A stretch of DNA of 17,401 nucleotides from Anaerolineae bacterium (GTDB taxonomy: Bacteria; Chloroflexota; Anaerolineae; UBA1429): the NCBI GenBank assembly GCA_007118555.1, contig SKRJ01000371.1, positions 1 through 17,401 of the forward strand. Direction: 5' to 3'. A program made the position numbers and the translations under genes. The notes below the pieces were generated by a model. The model made no database searches and was not told the origin of the DNA. It saw only the letters and a program-made list of their open reading frames with translations. Of the stretch, positions 2,986 to 8,483 are shown piece after piece. Position 1 is the stretch's first letter. Each line of letters begins with the position of its first letter.

Positions 2986-5964
2986 ATGCAGCACTGCTAC
3001 CGTGGGCCTCATCTTGCGTCCCGGCTGCGCCTTGTTCTCGTGCTCGCGTTGCTCCTTTCTTTTTCCTCATGGGCTGCACCCACATATGCCTCGACAGACG
3101 ATGTGAGCCCTGGCCTGCAGATCGTGTCAACCACGCTGACGGGCATCGAGTTCGAGTGGCTTGCCCCGTCCCATACCGTGCAACAGGATCCCGTCCTGGG
3201 ATGCGACATGCTGGCGGTCGCCGGCATGGCCCCTGTGGATGCCGCCGGCTGGCCCGCTCTGCCGGCCGCTGGCGCCCTTATCGGCATACCGTATACGGCT
3301 ACCGATCTCGGGCTCGAGATCCTGGAGATCGAGTACGTCGATCTCCCCGGCCGCTACTCGCTCTGCCCTGTGCCGCGCCCCATCCTGGAGCACCGGTCGG
3401 AGGTGTCGATGCCCCGGGGCTATACGCAGGAGGCCGATCCTGTGGCCTATGCTCTGGAGAGCTATTGGCCCACCGAGGTGATCGCGTTGGCCGAGGAGGG
3501 TTTCCTGCGCCAGCAGCGAGTGACCCAGATCGCCCTCTACCCTTTCCAGTACGTGCCCGCCACGGGGCAGCTACGGGCGATCCAACGTGTGCGCGCCCGT
3601 CTGTCCTATGTGGCCGATCCGCCACCTGCCCAGAATGACCCGCTCCTCGAGCCGGATGCCTATGAGCCGCTCTATCAAGCTGCTCTCGCCAACTATGAGC
3701 AGGCCCGCGTCTGGCGACAGCCCGTAGGCGCGCGCCAGGCGTTTCCCGTCACGGTCCAGGCCCAGACCGCGCAAGTTCTCAAGCTATCCGTGGAGGAGCA
3801 GGGCATGGTACGTCTGACGGGCGCAGAGCTGGCGTCCGCTGGGTTACCCTTGGGAGAGATCGATCCTCACACGATCCGCCTGTTCAACCAGGGACAAGAG
3901 ATCGCCCGCCGCATCGAGCAGTCGGCCCCCGGCCCGCTCCAGGCCGACGATGCGCTGTACTATTACGGAGAGGCGATTCGCTCGTCCTACACGGCGACGA
4001 ACGTCTATTGGCTGACCTGGGGCGAGGGACTGGGGCTCGACATGGTCACCGAGAGGACCGGCGTCTCGGACGTCCCGACAGCGTTTCGATACCTGCTGCC
4101 CATTAGCAGAGGCGGCCGCATGCTTGGGACCCCGGCCTATTTCACCGAGCCGATGGTTGCCCGGCAGGAGCGCGCCTATCTCACCAGCAACCCGATGCCG
4201 CCGGACGACGACCACTGGTATTGGGGCTGGATTCCGCCCGTGGGCGGGCTGTCTACCCGGGTCTTTACCAGCACCATCAAGGCTCCCTCGCCGGAGGCGT
4301 TGACGGCCCAACTGCGCGTCTATCTCACCGGCGAGAGGGCGAACAGGTCGTGGCACTGGGCGCGCGTCGAATGGGACGGGCTTTTGATCGGCGAAGCGAC
4401 CTGGGGATATGGCGAAAACATGGTTTTCGAAGCCAGCGTGCCCCAGGAGCATCTGTTGGACGGCGAGGTCGCCATCACGGTCACGACGGGGCTGGAGCTG
4501 TCTCCCGACGAGTTCGATATCATCTACTTGCATCGCTTTGAGCTGGACTATGGCCGGCGCTACCTGGCCGAGGACGACGTGCTCACCTTTGCGGTGGACG
4601 AGCCGGGCTCCTGGGAGGTGCGCGTCGAGGGCTTTTCGGGGCAGGCCGTGCCCGATCTGTACAGGACCACCGACCCGCTGCGCCCGGTCCATATCATGCA
4701 TGGCACGCTAGAGCCTGACGGCGAGGGGCACGCCCTGAGTCTGGTCCAGACTGTCGCGCAGACGGAGCGCTATGTGGCGCTGACCCCCGATCGGTATCAG
4801 AGCCCTGTGGCCATGGAGCTGGTGACCCCCACCCACTGGAGTGACCCGGCCCAGAGCGCCGACTATTTGATCATCACCCACGCCGACTTTTACGAGGCCA
4901 TCCAGCCGTTGGCCAATTACCGCAGGGCCCAGGGCCTGCGTGTGGTCGTCGTCGATGTGGTCGATCTGTACAACGAGTTCAACCACGGGATCGTGGGCGT
5001 CGATGGCATCCGCGGGTTCATCGCCCATGCCTATCACAACTGGAGCCCCCCGGCGCCGGCGTACGTCCTGCTGGTGGGCGACGGCAACTTTGATCCCAAG
5101 AATCACTTGGGGCGCGGCGAGATCTCGTACCTGCCGCCCTATCTGGCCGATGTAGATCCCTGGATGGGCGAGACCGTGGCGGACAACCGCTATGTCACCG
5201 TGCATGGCGACGACATCTTTCCCGATCTGTTCCTGGGGCGGCTGCCGGTCAAGACGGCGGCCGAGACGACGGCCATCGTAAACAAGATCCTGGCCTATGA
5301 GGCGCTGGAGAGCGAACTCTGGCAGCTTGACATCTCCTTTGTGGCTGACGTTGCCGGCGCAGGCGGGAACTATCCCGTGCTATCGGACGTAATCATCAAC
5401 CTGCACACGCCAGAGCCATATTTCCCCGAGCGCATCTATTACCTGGTGACGCCGGGCCATGACACGGTTGCGGGTGTGCGGGCGTCGCTGTTCAACGCGT
5501 TCAATCAGGGACGTCTCCTCATCAACTACAAGGGGCACGCGGCAATCTCGTCGTGGGGGGCGCCAGCGTTCTTTAACCTTGCCGATCTCGCGAATCTGGC
5601 GGATAATCATCGGCAGCCGTTCATAGTGCCCATGACCTGTCTGGAGGGCTACTATATCAGCCCACCGGCAGCCAATGGCTCTGATCGATCCTCGCTTTCC
5701 GAGGCGCTGGTGCGGCTGGAGGGGCGGGGGGCCATCGCGTCGTTCGCGCCCTCGGGCTTTGGCATTGCGGCCGGACACGAGTTTCTCAACAAGGGGCTCT
5801 TTGACGCCCTGTTCCAGGACGGCGTGACCGAGCTCGGACCCGCGACGACGCTGGCCAAGCTCAGGCTCTACAGAGACACGGTCGGCTATCGCGAGCTGAT
5901 CGACACATACCTGCTCATGGGTGATCCGGCCATGAGCCTGCGGACCTATAGCCCAGAGCCATGA
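2986..5964 (+). CDS. Secreted C25 (gingipain-type) cysteine peptidase
   Basis: A 992-residue exported protein. Residues 1-36 form a signal peptide: basic RLRL, a hydrophobic VLVLALLLSFSSWA core, then an APTYAS-type cleavage region. Residues about 37-215 resemble a C25 propeptide (LCPVPRPI; YPFQYVPATGQLRAIQRVR). A middle beta-rich region spans about 260-600. The peptidase domain runs from about 626 (DYLIITHADF) to the end, with VLLVGDGNFDPKN, the catalytic-dyad His in NYKGHA (H851), the catalytic Cys in MTCLEGYY (C885), and a terminal LLMGDPAMSLR. It lacks the Bacteroidetes type-IX sorting domain, so export by Sec is expected. The 75-base gap with a hairpin after the kinase gene leaves operon membership open. 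It may process or act with the putative peptide, or be an unrelated extracellular peptidase. Cleavage specificity cannot be told. Confidence 0.88.
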   Translation: MQHCYRGPHLASRLRLVLVLALLLSFSSWAAPTYASTDDVSPGLQIVSTTLTGIEFEWLAPSHTVQQDPVLGCDMLAVAGMAPVDAAGWPALPAAGALIGIPYTATDLGLEILEIEYVDLPGRYSLCPVPRPILEHRSEVSMPRGYTQEADPVAYALESYWPTEVIALAEEGFLRQQRVTQIALYPFQYVPATGQLRAIQRVRARLSYVADPPPAQNDPLLEPDAYEPLYQAALANYEQARVWRQPVGARQAFPVTVQAQTAQVLKLSVEEQGMVRLTGAELASAGLPLGEIDPHTIRLFNQGQEIARRIEQSAPGPLQADDALYYYGEAIRSSYTATNVYWLTWGEGLGLDMVTERTGVSDVPTAFRYLLPISRGGRMLGTPAYFTEPMVARQERAYLTSNPMPPDDDHWYWGWIPPVGGLSTRVFTSTIKAPSPEALTAQLRVYLTGERANRSWHWARVEWDGLLIGEATWGYGENMVFEASVPQEHLLDGEVAITVTTGLELSPDEFDIIYLHRFELDYGRRYLAEDDVLTFAVDEPGSWEVRVEGFSGQAVPDLYRTTDPLRPVHIMHGTLEPDGEGHALSLVQTVAQTERYVALTPDRYQSPVAMELVTPTHWSDPAQSADYLIITHADFYEAIQPLANYRRAQGLRVVVVDVVDLYNEFNHGIVGVDGIRGFIAHAYHNWSPPAPAYVLLVGDGNFDPKNHLGRGEISYLPPYLADVDPWMGETVADNRYVTVHGDDIFPDLFLGRLPVKTAAETTAIVNKILAYEALESELWQLDISFVADVAGAGGNYPVLSDVIINLHTPEPYFPERIYYLVTPGHDTVAGVRASLFNAFNQGRLLINYKGHAAISSWGAPAFFNLADLANLADNHRQPFIVPMTCLEGYYISPPAANGSDRSSLSEALVRLEGRGAIASFAPSGFGIAAGHEFLNKGLFDALFQDGVTELGPATTLAKLRLYRDTVGYRELIDTYLLMGDPAMSLRTYSPEP

Positions 5965-6048: not shown

Positions 6049-6621
6049 GTGGAACTACGAACACTGCTCTTTGAGGAGGGAGGCCCGCAGCACACCGAGG
6101 CGACGCTGGCGCTCTGCCTGGAGCGGGCCCTGGCCCTTGGCATCCGGCAGGTCGTGGTCGCTTCGTCGCACGGTGACACCGCGCGCCAGGCCCAGGCCCT
6201 GTTTGCGCCCCACGGCATCCGGGTGTGCGCTGTCACCCTGTGCCATGGCTGGGAGCACCTGGGCTGGTGCATGTCGCCGGAGACGCGGCGCGAGCTCGAG
6301 GAGTTGGGGATTGTGGTGGTCACCGGTATCCATGCCCTGGGCGATGGCGTGGGCTCGGCCTTTAGCGACAAACATGGCGGCCGCGCCGTCGAGGAGGTGG
6401 TGCGCGATGTGCTCTATCGGTTCTCGCAGGGTATGAAGGTTGCCGTCGAGTGCCTGCTGATGGCAGCCGATGTGGGCTTTTTGGACATGGAGGCCGAAGT
6501 GATCTCGATTGCGGGCACGGGGTCGGGCGCAGACACGGCCATTGTGTGCAAGCCCGCCTATCCGCGCACCGTGCTCGAGCTCGAGATTCGCGAGGTACTG
6601 GCCAAGCCCCGCATCCCCTGA
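6049..6621 (+). CDS. Stand-alone pyruvate kinase C-terminal-domain protein
   Basis: A 190-residue protein consisting only of a domain like the C-terminal (alpha/beta) allosteric domain of pyruvate kinase. It lacks the catalytic TIM barrel, so it is not a pyruvate kinase. Visible features are ALALGIRQVVVASSHGDTARQ near the N-terminus, a central VVVTGIHALGDGVGSAF, and a C-terminal ISIAGTGSGADTAIV followed by KPAYPRT. Such proteins occur in archaea and various bacteria; their biochemical role is not known to me. It starts at GTG 6049, with AAGGAG (6035-6040) 8 bases upstream. It lies 84 bases after the peptidase gene with no obvious promoter, so it may be read through from upstream or have its own weak promoter. 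No functional link to either neighbour is evident. Confidence 0.75.
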   Translation: MELRTLLFEEGGPQHTEATLALCLERALALGIRQVVVASSHGDTARQAQALFAPHGIRVCAVTLCHGWEHLGWCMSPETRRELEELGIVVVTGIHALGDGVGSAFSDKHGGRAVEEVVRDVLYRFSQGMKVAVECLLMAADVGFLDMEAEVISIAGTGSGADTAIVCKPAYPRTVLELEIREVLAKPRIP

Positions 6622-6653: not shown

Positions 6654-6681
6654 TTGCAGAATGGCGCGCAAAGACTATAAT
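6654..6681 (+). promoter_or_regulatory. Sigma70-type promoter of the peroxiredoxin-glutaredoxin gene
   Basis: TTGCAG (6654-6659) and a perfect TATAAT (6676-6681) are separated by 16 bases. Transcription would start near 6688, about 32 bases before the ATG at 6720. This makes the selenoprotein gene an independent transcription unit, consistent with the terminator right after it. Confidence 0.65.
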
Positions 6682-6719
6682 CTGGACAAAGTTGACCCAT
6701 GTGCTAAGGAGAAAAACTG

Positions 6720-7469
6720 ATGTCACTCAAGGTTGGAGACAAGGCGCCTGATTTCACACTTCCCAGCCATCTTGGCACGGAGGTCAGCCTCAGCGAGCTG
6801 CGGGGCAAGAATGTGCTGCTGGTGTTCTTTCCGCTGGCCTGGACCCCCGTTTGAACGAATCAGATTCCTGCTTACGAGGCAGATGTAGCCTTGTTCCAGC
6901 AGGTGAATGCCCAGGTGCTGGGCATCAGCGTCGACTCGGTTCCGTGTTTGCAGGCCTGGGCCGAGAGCCTGGGCGGGATCCAGTATCCGCTGCTGAGCGA
7001 TTTCTGGCCCCATGGCGAGGTCAGCGATGCCTATGGGGTGATGCGTGGTGAAGGCTACTCGGAACGCGCCCTCTTTTTGATCGATCGGGAGGGAATCCTT
7101 CGCTATATCGACATCCACGATATCGAGGATCAACCCGAGAATGCTGTCGTTTTGCAAGAGATTCGCAAGATGGACCCCGAGGCGGCCGCAAAGGCCCCGG
7201 CGCAACCCGAATCAGGGCCGGAGGAACTGCCCACCGGCGGCGTTATCCTGTATTGCACCCGCTGGTGCCCCGGATGCCGTCTGGCGCGGCGCTGGCTCGA
7301 GCAGCGCGGCATCGACTATACCGAGGTGGATGTGAACGCCTCGCCCGAGGCTGCCGAACGGGTGCGCGGCTGGGCCGATGGCAAGCTGCTCACACCGACC
7401 TATGACATCAACGGGACCATCGTGGTCAACAATCAGTGGGACCGCCTCTCAGAGCTGCTCGACTCCTGA
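6720..7469 (+). CDS. Selenocysteine peroxiredoxin-glutaredoxin fusion (in-frame TGA, Sec45)
   Basis: Read through one in-frame TGA (6852-6854), this is a 249-residue fusion. Residues 1-150 are an AhpC/TSA peroxiredoxin: [11 protein letters not shown], then [22 protein letters not shown], then VLGISVDSV and [11 protein letters not shown]. The TGA falls exactly on the peroxidatic Cys of the TPVCT motif, so it is read as selenocysteine (residue 45) rather than a nonsense mutation. Residues about 174-249 are a glutaredoxin-like domain: YCTRWCPGC (C183, C186), with a cis-Pro region LTPTY. The fused domain could reduce the oxidised selenocysteine, giving a self-contained peroxide reductase in the cytoplasm. 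C76 (SVPCLQAW) is a possible resolving residue. The start is ATG 6720 with AAGGAG (6706-6711) 8 bases upstream. The frame on both sides is intact and conserved, which argues against a pseudogene. Ordinary gene calling would report only a truncated protein starting near 6891. Sel genes are not in this window. Confidence 0.85.
6852..6896 (+). promoter_or_regulatory. Selenocysteine TGA codon and candidate SECIS hairpin
   Basis: Bacterial SECIS elements lie just downstream of the TGA, inside the coding sequence. Here CTGCT (6868-6872) pairs with GGCAG (6878-6882), optionally extended by a T-A pair, with an apical loop TACGA starting about 19 bases after the TGA. An outer stem pairs GAACGA (6853-6858) with TTGTTC (6891-6896). 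Position and size fit. The loop does not start with the G expected in the common bacterial consensus; an alternative CCT/AGG fold has loop GCTTACG but a weak stem. The TGA is certain; the fold is tentative. Confidence 0.5.
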
Positions 7470-7485: not shown

Positions 7486-7520
7486 AAAAGAGGAGCAGGC
7501 GTCTGTCGCCTGCTCCTTTT
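7486..7520. terminator. Bidirectional intrinsic terminator between convergent genes
   Basis: The arms GGAGCAGGCG (7492-7501) and CGCCTGCTCC (7507-7516) form a perfect 10-pair stem with loop TCTGT. TTTT follows (7517-7520) and AAAA precedes (7486-7489). It therefore has a terminator shape on both strands: it ends the peroxiredoxin-glutaredoxin transcript from the left and the eight-gene minus-strand run, whose last stop is at 7563, from the right. Confidence 0.88.
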
Positions 7521-7562: not shown

Positions 7563-8483
7563 CTAGCCAAACAGGTCGGTGCTGAGATAGCGCTCGCCCG
7601 TGTCGGGCAGCAGCGCGACGATCAGCTTGCCGGCGTGCTCGGGGCGATGGGCGAGCTGCAAGGCCGCCCAAGTGGCGGCCCCCGACGAGCCGCCCGCCAG
7701 GATACCCTCCTCACGGGCCAGGCGGCGGGTGACGCCAAAGGCCTCCTCATCGGTGATCGACAGGATCTCGTCGACCAGAGATAGATCCAGCACCTTGGGG
7801 ATGAAACCGGGCCCCATGCCCTGCAGGCGTGACTCGCCCGGCTCTCCGCCAGAGAGCACCGGCGACGAGGCGGGCTCTACGGCGACAATGTGCACCGACG
7901 GCTTGTGCTCTTTGAGGCGCCGCGCGACGCCGGTGATGGTGCCTCCCGTGCCCGATGCCGACACAAAGATGTCCACCTGCCCCTCGGTGTCGCGCCAGAT
8001 CTCTAGGCCCGTGGTCTCGTAATGCACGGCGGGGTTGGCCGGATTCTCGAACTGCAGGGGCATGAACGCATTGGGGTCACTGGCCACGATCTCTTCCGCC
8101 TTGGCGATGGCGGTCTTCATGCCGCCCTCGCCGGTGAGGACCAGCTCGGCGCCCAGGGCCCGCAACAGCCGCTTGCGCTCCTCCGAGACCGAATCGGGCA
8201 TGGTGCAGATCAGACGATAGCCCCGCGCCGCGCAGACCATGGCCAACCCGATCCCGGTGTTGCCGCTGGTGGGCTCCACCACGACCGAGTCGGCGGACAG
8301 CCGTCCCTGCTCCTCGGCGGCGACGATCATGCTGAGGGCGATACGCTCCTTGACGCAAGACAGGGGATTGAACGACTCGAGCTTGACGACGACCTGGGCC
8401 TGGGCATCGTCAACGATGCGATTGAGGCGCACCAACGGCGTATTCCCGATCGTGGCCGTGACGTCAGCATGGATACCGGGCAT
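7563..8483 (-). CDS. cysK: Cysteine synthase (O-acetylserine sulfhydrylase) family PLP enzyme
   Basis: 306 residues, normal for the CysK/CysM family, which replaces the acetyl group of O-acetylserine with sulfide to make cysteine, using PLP. The visible order is IGNTPLVRL (12-20), the PLP lysine in NPLSCVKER (K45), the substrate loop TSGNTG (72-77), the phosphate-binding GTGGTITG (178-185) and a C-terminal LAGGSSGAA. The lysine context NPLSCVKER differs from the common NPGGSVKDR, so a paralogue with another acceptor or donor is possible. It starts at ATG 8483, directly after the TAA of the upstream gene (8484-8486), which indicates one transcript. It is the last gene of the minus-strand run and ends 43 bases before the shared terminator. 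Confidence 0.9.

Follow-up and report, generated by a model that had tools for sequence, protein, structure and literature searches.

A conserved in-frame TGA at the peroxidatic position of an AhpE-like peroxiredoxin–glutaredoxin fusion gene of Anaerolineae very probably encodes selenocysteine

The gene at 6720–7469 on the forward strand of the window—the whole stretch of 17,401 nucleotides that was analysed, contig C421 of its genome—raises the question of how a reading frame with a stop codon at its catalytic residue is to be read. The frame starts with ATG at 6720, ends with the stop TGA 7467–7469, and contains a single in-frame TGA before its end, at 6852–6854 (codon 45). Read through this codon, it yields 249 residues, which feature a peroxiredoxin (Prx) domain followed by a glutaredoxin (Grx) domain from the N to the C terminus. 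The Prx domain (6732–7109, residues 5–130, with a structural match to about residue 153) matches PF00578 (AhpC/TSA) with an E value of 1.5e-41, and the Grx domain (7242–7400, residues 175–227) matches PF00462 with an E value of 9.6e-11 and carries the CPGC motif C183-P-G-C186 at 7266–7277. The in-frame TGA stands at the peroxidatic cysteine of the motif PxxxTxx...(U)TNQIP. The initial annotation had proposed that it replaces this cysteine, and that the homologous frame is intact on either side, and had suggested an alignment of homologues at residue 45; the alignment shows Cys or TGA at residue 45, and the Prx and Grx matches as well as coding-type substitutions on both sides agree with an intact frame. 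With high confidence, although short of certainty, the gene is taken to encode a selenoprotein, in which UGA 6852–6854 is read as selenocysteine (Sec) in an AhpE-like Prx with a built-in Grx.

The named records that best match the fusion gene come from Anaerolineales and Anaerolineaceae (Chloroflexota). Among 60 genomes searched, G001 is the sole other member of the genus; its fusion gene shares with that of the window both the TGA and 82% identity, and the window aligns with its region over 16,782 bases at 80.2% identity. The differences between the two copies at first, second, and third codon positions amount to 7/3/19 in the 44 codons before the TGA, 11/7/42 in the 106 codons of the Prx part after it, and 5/3/26 in the 77 codons of the Grx domain; the linker is looser, with 6/4/10 in 20 codons. 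This pattern looks like that of coding sequence, upstream of the TGA as well as downstream. The whole fusion is present in 30 of 396 genomes of the class (E ≤ 1e-40; the window's genome included), each time with one stop, which is a TGA, and a whole fusion free of stops is not listed among these 396 genomes. Three near relatives in the class sample, in G003, G062, and G291, each have the TGA, and their matches end at residues 161–193; the G003 match carries an added TAG, and no Grx match was found in its fetched locus. A search of 400 genomes of the phylum with the Cys form of the query (E ≤ 1e-60) gives four fusions, all with TGA; one is the window's own, and the class sample also contains the other three. 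The codon at position 45 was scored in 110 loci, consisting of the best 80 of 574 relatives and, for the rest, of loci from the genome search including the same genus; one (L113) was dropped for lack of a match, and the remaining 109 have TGA in 39, TGC in 47, TGT in 22, and TAC in 1. Further fusion loci have TGA at codon 45 in 23 of 23 cases; one of these, L151, is a duplicate that shares its contig with L009. L020 and L025, initially included among the fusions, consist of separate genes. Without these two, 39 fusion loci remain in the DNA-level alignment (the window's and one duplicate counted), and all 39 have TGA. Dozens of uncultured bacteria thus have this arrangement. A Cys-type fusion is listed neither among the 396 class genomes nor among the 400 phylum genomes, and none occurs in the 70 non-TGA loci scored, where the furthest match extends to residue 214 (L106). 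The TAC locus (L108) was excluded from the Cys groups, and identical sequences were removed from the SECIS, alignment, Cys76, and tree counts.

The RNA just after the TGA folds into a predicted bacterial SECIS hairpin (6867–6903, forward strand), with the apical loop AGAUGUA at 6881–6887, 26 nt after the UGA. Bases 6846–6905 fold with −21.7 kcal/mol, and dinucleotide shuffling puts the z score at −3.65; for three shorter cuts of the post-TGA region, the z scores are not significant (−0.13, −1.09, and −1.29). When synonymous codons are shuffled 200 times with the protein left unchanged, the hairpin of the window has a z score of −2.72, and none of the 200 shuffles is as low. The same-genus ortholog (L090) is borderline, with a z score of −1.62 and 5.5% of its synonymous shuffles as low. 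Across the family, the post-TGA fold has a mean z score of −2.30 in the Sec genes (n = 60; p ≤ 0.05 in 45) versus −0.22 in the Cys homologues (n = 69; p ≤ 0.05 in 7). The Mann–Whitney test of Sec versus Cys z scores gives p = 4e-16 (60 versus 70, the TAC row being added), a value that is too optimistic because the rows are related. A published model of the bacterial SECIS, coded in an in-house script from a figure legend of PMC13188914 rather than taken from a dedicated predictor, asks for a loop of 3–9 nt, an upper stem of 4–16 bp, a G in the first two loop positions, a distance of 16–37 nt from the UGA, and a minimum free energy (MFE) of −7.5 kcal/mol or below. The window fits this model with the loop AGATGTA, 7 bp, 26 nt, and −19.7 kcal/mol; the SECIS check that the initial annotation had suggested is thus answered in its favour, both by the model and by the synonymous-codon shuffles. 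The MFE fold fits in 25 of the 39 loci then called fusions, two of which are not true fusions (shuffles 24%), in 10 of 21 unfused Sec genes (shuffles 26%), and in 11 of 69 Cys genes (shuffles 16%); that of L090 does not fit. RNAalifold on 39 aligned post-TGA sequences gives zero consensus pairs, which says neither for nor against covariation, since the stems seem to be shifted by 1–2 bases between sequences. A sequencing error, or a nonsense mutation that recently hit a Cys-type gene—as Cys homologues at the same position and an assembly fragmented into 477 contigs might suggest—deserves hardly any credence as the origin of the TGA in view of its presence in the same-genus copy and in the other fusion loci (39 in all), the coding-type substitutions after it, and the stable hairpin found in Sec genes and not in Cys genes. 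Comparison of the sequences thus indicates that the TGA is neither a sequencing error nor the sign of a broken gene.

In protein records, the gene takes other shapes. Out of 7,868 matches, 120 relatives were listed; residue 45 is Cys in 68 of them, Trp in 26, and Arg in 1, and 25 begin downstream of residue 45, the window's own product included. In the 68 Cys rows, the residue is read from protein records. None of the 25 listed NCBIfam models reaches its cut-off for the fusion protein, and the Grx domain stays under the cut-off of every listed Grx family. The earlier expectation that such a gene is easily lost in annotation is borne out by the 25 relatives that start past residue 45 and the 26 with Trp. 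Short products of this kind would also result if translation began at an internal start and gave only the downstream part, a Grx preceded by what is left of the Prx, for example from the 192-residue frame 6891–7469. This is highly improbable, as TCG replaces the TTG at 6891 in the gene of G001 and coding-type substitutions are also seen in the 44 codons ahead of the TGA. The Trp rows are probably, in their simplest reading, TGA codons that gene callers translated by another code (table 4). P0003, P0005, and 24 other proteins of the collection have Trp exactly at the Sec position, and a Trp at this place is a handle for finding hidden selenoproteins.

The genome of the window (G000; 2.6 Mb, 477 contigs, 78% complete, 2.7% contaminated) has selB and selD over their cut-offs; its selD is itself of the Sec type, with its own TGA, and reads GUGGK. 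No selA and no tRNA-Sec were found in this assembly, which is read as missing sequence because the genome is 78% complete. G001, which is 95% complete, has selA, selB, selD, and a 70-bit tRNA-Sec that ARAGORN calls tRNA-SeC with the anticodon TCA. Of the sel genes that the initial annotation had asked for, selB and selD are therefore present in the genome itself and selA and tRNA-Sec only in the same-genus genome; the lack of selA, selB, and tRNA-Sec, which it had named as an argument against Sec, applies in part, in an incomplete assembly, and not to selB. A selA match (E ≤ 1e-60) occurs in 26 of the 30 genomes with the whole fusion; those without are G000, G109, G187, and G300, the last of which is 93% complete. 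As 318 of the 396 class genomes have selA at this threshold anyway, its co-occurrence cannot discriminate. If the TGA were decoded as Cys or Trp instead, by a suppressor tRNA or a change of code, the missing selA and tRNA-Sec would be accounted for, as would the Trp at residue 45 in 26 of 120 collection proteins, which is what table 4 gives. Such decoding is nevertheless very unlikely: the neighbouring gene 6049–6621 ends in TGA, as does the fusion gene itself; the same-genus genome has tRNA-SeC(TCA) together with selA, selB, and selD; and eight tRNA-like regions taken from the window's genome contain no UCA anticodon, as far as these regions go. Trp is, moreover, incapable of peroxidatic chemistry. 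The gene is real and conserved, and most of the computational tests mark it as a selenoprotein gene, with gaps.

By sequence, the Prx domain comes closest to AhpE among the best 60 of 165 PDB matches, and in a comparison with the predicted structure AhpE ranks first, tied with other Prx. The domain shares with the AhpE subfamily the closest sequence, the motif PxxxTxx(C/U), and Arg116. Because Cys76 is present beside the Sec45 codon, it departs from the single peroxidatic Cys of that subfamily and is named AhpE-like. AhpE of Mycobacterium tuberculosis (Rv2238c) is paired with mycoredoxin-1 (Rv3198.1), which, according to a passage of PMC4360819, reduces the sulfenic acid of AhpE directly or via a mixed disulfide with mycothiol; a passage of PMC8945050 describes the pairing likewise. 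The likeness consists of the equivalents of T42 and R116 in AhpE and, as given in PMC4360819, of a Grx-like reductant. The differences are that AhpE is a separate single-Cys protein with Cys at the peroxidatic position, whereas the fusion has TGA at codon 45, an attached Grx, and an added Cys76, which aligns with a Thr of AhpE. The Grx domain matches mycoredoxin-1 weakly (2lqo, E 7e-4) and scores 47.5 bits in the mycoredoxin family TIGR02200, below the cut-off of 89.5. The fusion resembles, with this in mind, the AhpE/mycoredoxin pair in one chain and with Sec.

Other known systems share single traits with the fusion. PrxU of Eubacterium acidaminophilum (NF040737), to which the initial annotation had compared it, has Sec at the peroxidatic position in common with it; the comparison does not extend to the subfamily, as the Prx domain is AhpE-like and the 68.3 bits of the fusion stay below the PrxU cut-off of 270. 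PrxU reportedly has no Grx domain. The HUGP/GUXX-star fusion selenoprotein (NF045501) is similar in being a multidomain selenoprotein with a Grx-like domain; however, the fusion scores 28.8 bits against a cut-off of 325, and its Grx part alone matches. For UXX-star, the score is 41.8 against a cut-off of 66 bits, and the Grx motif reads CPGC, with no Sec there. PGdx of Haemophilus influenzae, like the fusion, unites Prx and Grx in one chain, in the order Prx–Grx from N to C terminus; the Prx domain of PGdx is of the Prx5 type. The fusion differs from it by the TGA at codon 45, by the absence of a PF04107 match in nine of the ten fusion genomes searched, and probably by its Prx domain, for which AhpE is the best match among the best 60 of 165. 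In a passage of PMC1361801, PGdx is described as a hybrid Prx–Grx and a glutathione-dependent peroxidase of the Cys-based atypical 2-Cys type. Families of peroxiredoxins and of glutaredoxins with Sec have been described (PMC13188914, PMC9312934, and PMC1794560); the first, a review, lists a selenoprotein Prx with TxxU. A Sec AhpE or a Sec Prx–Grx fusion was not found described in the titles and abstract openings of the open-licence papers retrieved.

We infer the following course, from the insertion of Sec through catalysis and resolution to the supply of electrons. SelB, with the hairpin just downstream, would read UGA 6852–6854 as Sec. In the N-terminal AhpE-like domain, Sec45 would reduce hydroperoxides with the help of Thr42 and Arg116 and be converted to a selenenic acid. 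P38, T42, and R116 are present in all 136 aligned rows. Two residues could then resolve the selenenic acid: Cys76 (6945–6947), which would form an internal selenenylsulfide, or Cys183 of the Grx domain, which would attack it directly. Cys76, a candidate resolving cysteine, is typical of the fused form in the alignment of homologues: it occurs in 35 of 38 Sec fusions (those without are L011, L012, and L016) versus 1 of 23 unfused Sec genes and 11 of 69 Cys homologues. The one unfused case, L096, comes from G003 and is a near relative of the fusion. In the predicted structure, helices start at residues 45 and 74. Direct resolution by Cys183, as in a 1-Cys, AhpE-like Prx in which Cys76 would be incidental, has a serious chance of being correct, though somewhat below even. 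It would fit the invariance of C183 among the 134 aligned rows that have this position, next to C186, which is Ser in 5 rows, and C76, which is missing in 36 of 135, and it would parallel the direct reduction of AhpE sulfenic acid by mycoredoxin-1 reported in a passage of PMC4360819. Against it speak the distribution of Cys76 between fused and unfused genes and the five rows with Ser at 186, all of which are without Cys76; a Fisher value for this association carries no weight here, since it takes in two gapped rows and ignores how the rows are related. The proposed order is one in which the selenenic acid of Sec45 would form a bond with Cys76 that would then be reduced by Cys183/Cys186. The attached Grx would serve the Prx domain as a reductase within the chain, in the manner of mycoredoxin-1 and AhpE in M. 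tuberculosis, and would in turn be reduced by a cellular thiol donor. The term self-regenerating, used in the initial annotation, is too strong, since the Grx domain still needs an outside reductant. Bacillithiol is a candidate donor in this genus because bshA is present. BshA is matched in 10 of 10 fusion genomes and is over its cut-off only in G000 and G001; in these two, the gene, which is the first of bacillithiol synthesis, lies far over the cut-off at G000:C374:4027-5136 and G001:C44:6203-7312. MshC is matched in 10 of 10 and over its cut-off in none, and PF04107 (gamma-glutamylcysteine ligase type) is matched in 1 of 10 (G251). By these three markers, the 10 fusion genomes have no donor in common.

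The flanks of the gene carry signals of unequal strength. Upstream, a possible promoter (6654–6681, forward strand; weak, by eye) consists of TTGCAG at 6654–6659, a 16-base spacer, and TATAAT at 6676–6681. Read directly, TATAAT is perfect and TTGCAG weak, and a sigma-70 scan gives 0 promoters for the fusion gene at its threshold (shuffles 0.3); a promoter had been rated as good in the initial annotation, an assessment that holds in part. The ribosome-binding site it had named is present as AAGGAG at 6706–6711 (forward strand), 8 bases before the ATG. Downstream, a hairpin at 7491–7517, likely a bidirectional terminator, lies between the fusion gene on the forward strand and the convergent gene 7563–8483 on the reverse strand and probably serves both; a terminator had been predicted here, and the scan scored it on the minus strand only. 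Elsewhere in the window, the region 431–2910 contains a PqqD-like protein (PF05402), a radical SAM protein (PF04055), a short frame within 1721–1969 that has two Cys near its end and matches nothing in Pfam, and a protein of 307 residues whose weak AAA_33 match lies below the cut-off; it looks like a peptide-modification (RiPP) cluster. The region 2986–5964 encodes a protein of 992 residues in which a C25 (gingipain-type) peptidase domain is accompanied by a propeptide.

Beyond the fusion, AhpE-like genes with TGA occur as stand-alone forms in Bacillota, Acidobacteriota, Eremiobacterota, Binatota, and Chloroflexota, including the named strains Bacillus pinisoli, Schinkia azotoformans, Evansella vedderi, and Sulfobacillus harzensis. 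The loci L022, L023, L024, and L075 (Sulfobacillus, Bacillus, Schinkia, and Evansella) are stand-alone genes of this kind with TGA at the peroxidatic codon and are possible unannotated selenoproteins of cultured bacteria, as far as their sequences tell. In a Bacillaceae metagenome-assembled genome, a Grx-like gene lies directly upstream of a Sec AhpE-like gene (L020:5034-5846)—the pair in its unfused state. On a tree built from 118 Prx domains (60 Sec and 58 Cys), which leaves out L108 and most of L102–L118, the Sec label has to change six times; two of these changes are forced by well-supported branches, with the bootstrap not fully settled. The reading as a whole—Sec45 is oxidised, Cys76 resolves it, the fused Grx reduces the bond, and Cys76 marks the on-board reductase, within a wider and largely unannotated Sec AhpE-like family that spans several phyla and includes cultured Bacilli—stands at about even odds. 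The fusion would add to the selenoproteins a form that escapes gene callers. In it, an AhpE-like peroxidase and a Grx-type reductant would make up one covalent unit, and the reductive half-cycle of 1-Cys-type peroxiredoxins would thereby become testable in a single purified protein.
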